NCBI GenBank assembly: GCA_938023735.1
Contig: CALJDK010000036.1
Span: forward strand, 62,001-126,000
Direction of reading: 5' to 3'
DNA: 64,000 nucleotides
Source: an uncultured Acidimicrobiales bacterium
Lineage (GTDB): Bacteria; Actinomycetota; Acidimicrobiia; Acidimicrobiales; SHLQ01
Shown here: piece after piece, positions 43,291 through 44,009 of the stretch
How positions within the stretch are numbered: position 1 is the stretch's first letter
How the letters are laid out: each line of letters starts with the position of its first letter
Notes under the pieces: generated by a model
Databases searched by the model: none
Seen by the model: the letters and a program-made list of their open reading frames with translations, nothing else
What the model was told of the DNA's origin: nothing
Made by a program: the position numbers and the translations under genes

Positions 43291-43316
43291 TTCATATTGA
43301 TGTCCATCAATATGAA
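43291..43316. promoter_or_regulatory. 26-bp AT-rich perfect inverted repeat
   Basis: TTCATATTGATG at 43291-43302 is exactly complementary to CATCAATATGAA at 43305-43316 with only TC between. It is strikingly AT-rich for this genome. It sits just after the stop of the UGA-containing gene and about 160 bases before the DEAD-box helicase start, both on the minus strand. The near-dyad form suggests an operator of the ArsR/SmtB or TetR kind, or a terminator for the upstream gene. Confidence 0.6.
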
Positions 43317-43324
43317 CGACGATT

Positions 43325-43621
43325 TCAGATCTGGCAGGCGTCGTCGTCGCGTTCGATGTTGGCTTTTACCCGTTTGAGGACACCTTTGGTGTCGATAACG
43401 ATTCGGGTGAAGCCGATGAGCTTTGGCGACACCAGAATTCGGAGCTCGTCGTCGCGGCGGAGACGGCGATAGCCGGTGAGGTTTTTGCCCTTTGTGTTGG
43501 TGTCGACCGACACCTCATAGCGGACCTTGCCTCAACCGTCAGGGGGCAAAAAGTCGATCGTGGCGGTGCCGCCCTTCGAGCGGATTGCCTGTGCCGCGGC
43601 ATCGGTTACCTGTAAATCCAT
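43325..43621 (-). CDS. Candidate selenoprotein (IscA/HesB-like) with in-frame UGA
   Basis: An ATG at 43621 opens a 98-codon frame interrupted only by TGA at 43534-43532 (codon 30) and ended by TGA at 43327-43325. Before the UGA the protein reads MDLQVTDAAAQAIRS and ends with DFLPPDG. After it the frame continues GKVRYEVSVDTNTKG, then a strand-rich region and a late Cys96 (DACQI). The G-UGA-G position corresponds to the first metal-ligand cysteine of IscA/HesB-fold proteins, and the codons after the TGA keep the G/C-rich third positions of a real gene. A SECIS-like hairpin follows the UGA. Alternatives are a nonsense mutation of a Cys codon or a sequencing error. Confidence 0.6.
43499..43514 (-). 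promoter_or_regulatory. SECIS-like stem-loop downstream of the in-frame UGA
   Basis: On the minus strand GGTGTC (43514-43509) pairs with GACACC (43504-43499) around the loop GGTC. The loop begins 23 bases after the UGA and starts with G. This fits the bacterial SECIS pattern as I recall it: a stem of at least four pairs, a small loop with G in its first two positions, roughly 16-37 bases from the UGA. A short lower pairing (TG/CA) may extend it past an A-rich internal loop. Function is inference. Confidence 0.45.
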
Positions 43622-43688: not shown

Positions 43689-44009
43689 CTAGACGCTGGC
43701 TTCCCAGCCCTCGTACTCGCCAACCAGCCGATCCGCCAGGTCTTCGAACAACATGCGGTTCTGGCGCAAACTGCACTCGGTTACCACTGCTGCGAGGTCT
43801 TGGGCAAGCACGAGCCAGTCGTCCTCGCCGCCCTCGGGTCCAGCGATTTCGACATACCACCCGGCGGTCGAAAGCTCGCTGGCGGCAAGGTATGCGGTGT
43901 CTTCGGACAGCACGTAGAGGTAGTGCATGACCAGGCGTGGTTCGCTGAGATCTGCGCCCGCGCAAACAAGAGCAGTAATTGCTCCAGCGTCGGTCCACAC
44001 GTCGGTCAT
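43689..44009 (-). CDS. Small RraB-like protein
   Basis: A 106-residue acidic protein starting MTDVWTDAG. The central HYLYVLSEDTAYLAASEL and AGWYVEIAGPEG, then DDWLVLAQDLAAVV, resemble the RraB (ribonuclease E inhibitor/regulator) fold, in which a strand-helix-strand unit is repeated. The match is by pattern only. It lies 67 bases upstream of the UGA-containing gene on the same strand, so the two may be co-transcribed. Confidence 0.6.
   Translation of the reverse strand: MTDVWTDAGAITALVCAGADLSEPRLVMHYLYVLSEDTAYLAASELSTAGWYVEIAGPEGGEDDWLVLAQDLAAVVTECSLRQNRMLFEDLADRLVGEYEGWEASV

Follow-up and report, generated by a model that had tools for sequence, protein, structure and literature searches.

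We found that a gene on the minus strand of a 64-kb window (the whole 64,000-nucleotide stretch of DNA that was analyzed) in all likelihood encodes a 98-residue selenoprotein with the fold of A-type carriers (IscA/SufA/HesB), in which an in-frame UGA at codon 30 would be translated as selenocysteine (Sec) by means of SelB and a downstream hairpin. The reading frame (43325..43621, minus strand) has 98 codons and a stop, beginning with ATG at 43621 and ending with TGA at 43327-43325. Its only internal TGA (43532..43534, minus strand) is codon 30, lies between Gly29 and Gly31 in a G-U-G motif and is followed by 68 sense codons. The putative apical hairpin of a bacterial SECIS (bSECIS), GGUGUC-GGUC-GACACC (43499..43514, minus strand), encodes part of the peptide E-V-S-V-D-T at codons 36-41, and a near-invariant C-terminal cysteine, Cys96, is encoded by TGC at 43334..43336 (minus strand). 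Every detail of the gene and hairpin in an earlier, sequence-only reading was borne out on re-reading, namely the 98-codon frame with one internal TGA flanked by glycines at codon 30, Cys96, and a GGTGTC-GGTC-GACACC stem-loop at 43514-43499 that starts 17 nt past the TGA and has a loop opening in GG; the strand, which is minus, was absent from that reading. A plus-strand reading of 43325-43621 gave an unrelated frame and was rejected.

The predicted structure places the protein among A-type carriers. An AlphaFold2 model based on a 77-row alignment (pLDDT 86.3, pTM 0.76) was compared with the PDB using Foldseek, and ranks 1-8 were all A-type carriers (SufA, IscA, HI1723 and YneR; best match E 8.5e-4, probability 1.00, TM 0.60; TM-scores ~0.5-0.6). 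Alignment to E. coli IscA and SufA profiles with hhalign put Sec30 on IscA Cys35 (E 0.0012, probability 19%), in agreement with the earlier proposal that the TGA occupies the site of the first metal-binding cysteine. Given TM-scores of ~0.5-0.6 and an hhalign probability of 19%, the relation to IscA is remote. Searching the PDB by sequence profile gave no match, and the proposed link to the A-type carrier fold rests on structure comparison. The window protein had no significant match to Pfam Fe-S_biosyn (PF01521), which matched two of 77 members of the family (best E 0.02). All 77 members matched NF041239 (hmmscan, best E 8e-11), with scores of 21 bits for the window protein and 14.5-38.7 bits for ten relatives, below the curated cut-off of 40. 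The label "IscA/HesB-like" given in the sequence-only reading thus holds for the fold and weakly at the profile level, but not as sequence membership of Fe-S_biosyn or TIGR01911, the nearest named family being NF041239 at a sub-cut-off score.

Comparison with these named families showed both shared and distinct features. The protein resembles NF041239, the "CC/Se motif family (seleno)protein" (Moorella thermoacetica hypothetical selenoprotein), in length and in having Sec or Cys in an equivalent loop, whereas proteins above the NF041239 cut-off in the host phylum carry CCGG in place of G-U-G and the window family has a single U in G-U-G together with a C-terminal C/U-x-H or C-x-I. It shares with IscA and SufA (PF01521) the predicted fold and the correspondence of Sec30 to Cys35, but those carriers have Cys35, Cys99 and Cys101 with a C-terminal CGCG, while the window protein has only U30 and C96; CGCG is absent and one Cys (or Sec) stands instead of two. 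HesB-like selenoproteins (TIGR01911) are A-type-carrier-like, with Sec at the first cluster-binding cysteine. The window protein is like them in having an A-type-carrier-like fold and one Sec at that site, and the same fold class and apparently equivalent Sec position would fit plain membership of TIGR01911, but the motif listed for this one-Sec family, UxGP (PMC13188914), is absent, hmmscan found no TIGR01911 match among the 77 members up to E = 1 while all 77 matched NF041239, and Fe-S_biosyn was found in 2 of 77 only (best E 0.02), which makes plain membership unlikely.

The reading of codon 30 as Sec was assessed across homologues. A homologue was present in 41 of 297 genomes from the same order, and TGA occurred at codon 30 in all 40 homologues spanning the codon; the 41st, a contig-end fragment starting past codon 30, was left out of this count. 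selA was detected in 40 of the 41 genomes with a homologue vs. 144 of the 256 without one (Fisher test, with a p value that is optimistic because the genomes are related). We also scanned 85,000 species genomes using the peptide EVSVDT or the motif GG..(A/T)(I/V)DF as seeds, which favors the family but not particular codons, and found TGA at codon 30 in 80 of 80 loci. Their labels were Acidimicrobiia, Nitriliruptoraceae and Chloroflexi, apart from a few Acidobacteria or Pseudonocardiaceae labels that may stem from mislabeled bins. Both a UGA-type gene and selA are present in the genome of a cultured strain, Ilumatobacter nonamiensis YM16-303 (L080), and the two UGA-bearing genomes without detectable selA (G170 and G648) are both incomplete MAGs (83 and 80%). 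UGA was likewise present in 77 of 77 non-redundant homologues, the set used for the codon, stem and profile analyses. Taking all homologues together, the position holds UGA or, rarely, Cys, an outcome in favor of the earlier reading, which had named this comparison as a check. Homology to relatives extends over the entire protein, before and after UGA30, and dN/dS was well below 1 upstream and downstream of it in same-genus pairs. Under a standard reading the gene yields a 29-residue peptide and the list of open reading frames shows only pieces downstream, which would occur if UGA30 were an ordinary stop, in a pseudogene or between two separate ORFs, or a sequencing error. Such a reading is highly improbable, however, as the UGA and the frame on both sides of it are kept in dozens of independent assemblies, including that of YM16-303, dN/dS is below 1 past UGA30 and the hairpin is frozen; sequencing error is untenable because identical UGA codons occur in many independently assembled genomes.

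The hairpin that would direct Sec insertion at UGA30 has a perfect 6-bp stem and a GGUC apical loop at +23 nt from the UGA. A perfect 6-bp GGTC hairpin 8-30 nt from any TGA is unique in the 64-kb window on both strands; a second listed TGA (43541), 7 nt upstream of UGA30 and out of frame, points to the same hairpin. Published bSECIS constraints are a stem of 4-16 bp, a loop of 3-9 nt with G in the first two positions, a UGA-to-loop distance of 16-37 nt and an MFE of at most -7.5 (PMC13188914), and the hairpin lies within all of them, with 6 bp, GGUC, 23 nt and -11.1 kcal/mol for a 41-nt stretch. Folding energy by itself was unexceptional (z -0.74 over 41 nt) and was not used as proof because it is not significant alone. 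A search of Rfam, in which no bacterial SECIS model was sought by name, gave no match. The fdhF SECIS of E. coli has a GGUC apical loop. The window hairpin is like such E. coli-type elements in its short stem, GGUC apical loop and permitted distance (constraints in PMC13188914), but its upper stem has no bulged U, and the second element found in relatives with two UGA codons lies mostly past the stop codon.

Codon usage beneath the hairpin was nearly fixed across the family. Codons 37, 38 and 39 were GTG, TCG and GTC in 77 of 77 homologues, codon 36 was GAG in all 71 with Glu, and codon 40 was GAC in 76 of 77, whereas the equally invariant residues A9, G17, G18, K46 and Y51 each used two to four synonymous codons. 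All six stem pairs were standard in every one of the 77 sequences, the first pair occurring in C-G, U-G and G-U versions and the second and fourth also in G-U versions, and compensating changes kept the stem despite an amino acid change in some homologues (GAC...ACG, GAC...ATG). Shuffles in the stem analysis preserved base composition only, not dinucleotides. UGA and stem were separated by 14 nt in 64 sequences and by 17 nt in 13, a difference of one codon. These comparative results, UGA in 77 of 77 homologues and fixed synonymous sites beneath the predicted hairpin, indicate that the hairpin is beyond chance.

Cysteine-containing homologues served as a natural control. A profile search across the phylum returned four full-length, distant Cys homologues with TGC or TGT at codon 30, together with eight UGA forms, one of them that of the window. 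The hairpin was lost in all four, E-V-S-V-D-T having become EAAIDT, EVAIDT or EIAFDT (VSV to AAI, VAI or IAF), and selA was missing from two of the four genomes. Since the Cys homologues drop both VSV and the hairpin, the freezing of VSV is best explained by RNA rather than protein. Replacement of Sec by Cys thus amounts to a clean natural experiment, in which the VSV strand, which also serves as SECIS, is no longer conserved. A quick tree gave two changes between U and C at the first site and three at the second, though with few columns and long branches the direction is not fixed.

The host genome contained the complete Sec machinery, with tRNA-Sec (71 bits vs. the Rfam cut-off of 47), selA (395 bits), selB adjoining selA on the same contig, and selD (376 bits). 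selD has an in-frame TGA within a G-U-G-C motif (L018:1531-1533) and its own hairpin downstream, making it a likely second selenoprotein of the genome, so that decoding of UGA as Sec very probably extends to at least one further gene. Complete machinery, a conserved UGA and constraint on the hairpin all support the proposal, already made from the letters alone, that UGA30 is very probably decoded as selenocysteine. Although reassignment of UGA to Trp or Gly throughout the genome, or plain readthrough, could in principle account for one frame containing UGA, this is scarcely credible where UGA is the usual terminator of this gene and many homologues, the rare full-length alternatives have Cys rather than Trp or Gly, and a SECIS-type hairpin is present with complete Sec machinery.

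With Sec at position 30, the hairpin 17 nt downstream would recruit SelB with Sec-tRNA-Sec, and translation would end at the second UGA, codon 99, where nothing indicates recoding. Sec30 would take the place of the first cluster-binding cysteine of IscA, Cys35, and its most likely partner is Cys96 in the flexible C-terminus. This selenol/thiol pair may provide metal or cluster ligands, probably across a dimer, or may alternatively act as a reversible selenenyl-sulfide redox pair; the ligand role is favored because of the fold, and the redox role is left open because one of the usual three cysteines is lost. A biochemical function in cluster, metal or redox chemistry is putative. As the genome encodes a canonical A-type carrier elsewhere (PF01521; L156, contig C10:6426-6740), on the contig of selA and selB and ~4 kb from them, the selenoprotein is likely to be a specialized carrier and not a general one.

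The C-terminal position, which is Cys and not UGA in the window gene, was also UGA in 13 relatives, for the most part from Chloroflexi and Acidimicrobiia (L103, L105, L107, L110, L111, L112, L115, L116, L119, L120, L121, L126 and L127). Most of these end in H-x-H-x-P-T-U-x-H followed by a stop, which aligns with H-x-H-x-x-x-C-x-H in other homologues. Within a 40-nt zone starting 8 nt past the C-terminal UGA or Cys codon, a G-containing loop on a stem of 6 bp or more was found in 12 of 13 dual-UGA genes but in only 11 of the 57 genes of Cys type (Fisher p 1.4e-6, with no correction for relatedness). Loops were GGUC, GUU, GGU or GUC, the hairpins lay mostly past the stop codon, and the stems varied in sequence, as expected of a structure maintained by pairing. 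A second UGA accompanied by a G-loop hairpin in 12 of 13 cases therefore suggests dual-Sec proteins with a SECIS in the 3' UTR, pointing to the 13 loci as candidates. A full selA was present in 11 of 16 genomes examined (the 13 with dual-UGA genes and three others, mostly MAGs), and two more had sub-cut-off fragments. It is possible, though we hold this only tentatively, that the subfamily comprises proteins of A-type carrier fold in which both ligands can be Sec, the second inserted through a SECIS past the stop codon, and selenolates hold a metal or Fe-S cluster. Other variation at the C-terminus was also observed. One homologue (L044/L090) has a further in-frame TGA, at codon 95, near a His of relatives in the alignment and just before H-G-N-C-V-A-L-stop, which may reflect readthrough, frameshift or decay, and two others (L028 and L038) end at residue 91, with the C-terminal Cys lost and Sec30 and the SECIS retained.

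Gene surroundings were assessed by clustering the neighborhoods of homologue loci, which revealed no conserved gene neighborhood hinting at function. Clusters consisted of housekeeping genes common within lineages (hemE, hemG-like, lnt, D-tyrosyl-tRNA deacylase-like and RNase E/G-like; neighbors were named mostly by sequence inspection, with a Pfam check in the window only), and guilt by association was therefore dropped. The largest cluster was made up chiefly of antisense frames that overlap or adjoin the selenoprotein gene and was ignored, and viral contigs contained no relatives of the selenoprotein. In the window, an RraB-like ORF (43689..44009, minus strand; Pfam PF06877, 40.8 bits vs. 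a cut-off of 23.3) lies 67 nt upstream of the selenoprotein ORF on the same strand, so the two are possibly co-transcribed. Between the selenoprotein stop and the start of a DEAD-box helicase gene, a perfect 12-bp inverted repeat, TTCATATTGATG-TC-CATCAATATGAA (43291-43316), is the sole copy in the window at up to three mismatches (0 expected by chance) and looks like a regulator operator.

A table of 119 prokaryotic selenoprotein families includes the HesB-like proteins, with their UxGP motif, and the CC/Se family, each with one Sec, and has no entry fitting the window subfamily or its dual-Sec version (PMC13188914). We found no paper linking a selenoprotein with Acidimicrobiia or Ilumatobacter in a literature search that covered work outside subscription papers. 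Standard annotation would cut the gene short at residue 29, and UGA-containing genes of this kind are easily missed because the standard reading ends there. With the present analysis, Acidimicrobiia, Nitriliruptoraceae and Chloroflexi gain what is very probably a widespread subfamily of selenoproteins, and the candidate dual-Sec relatives, with a hairpin in the 3' UTR, would put to the test the rule that SECIS elements of bacteria are located within coding sequence.
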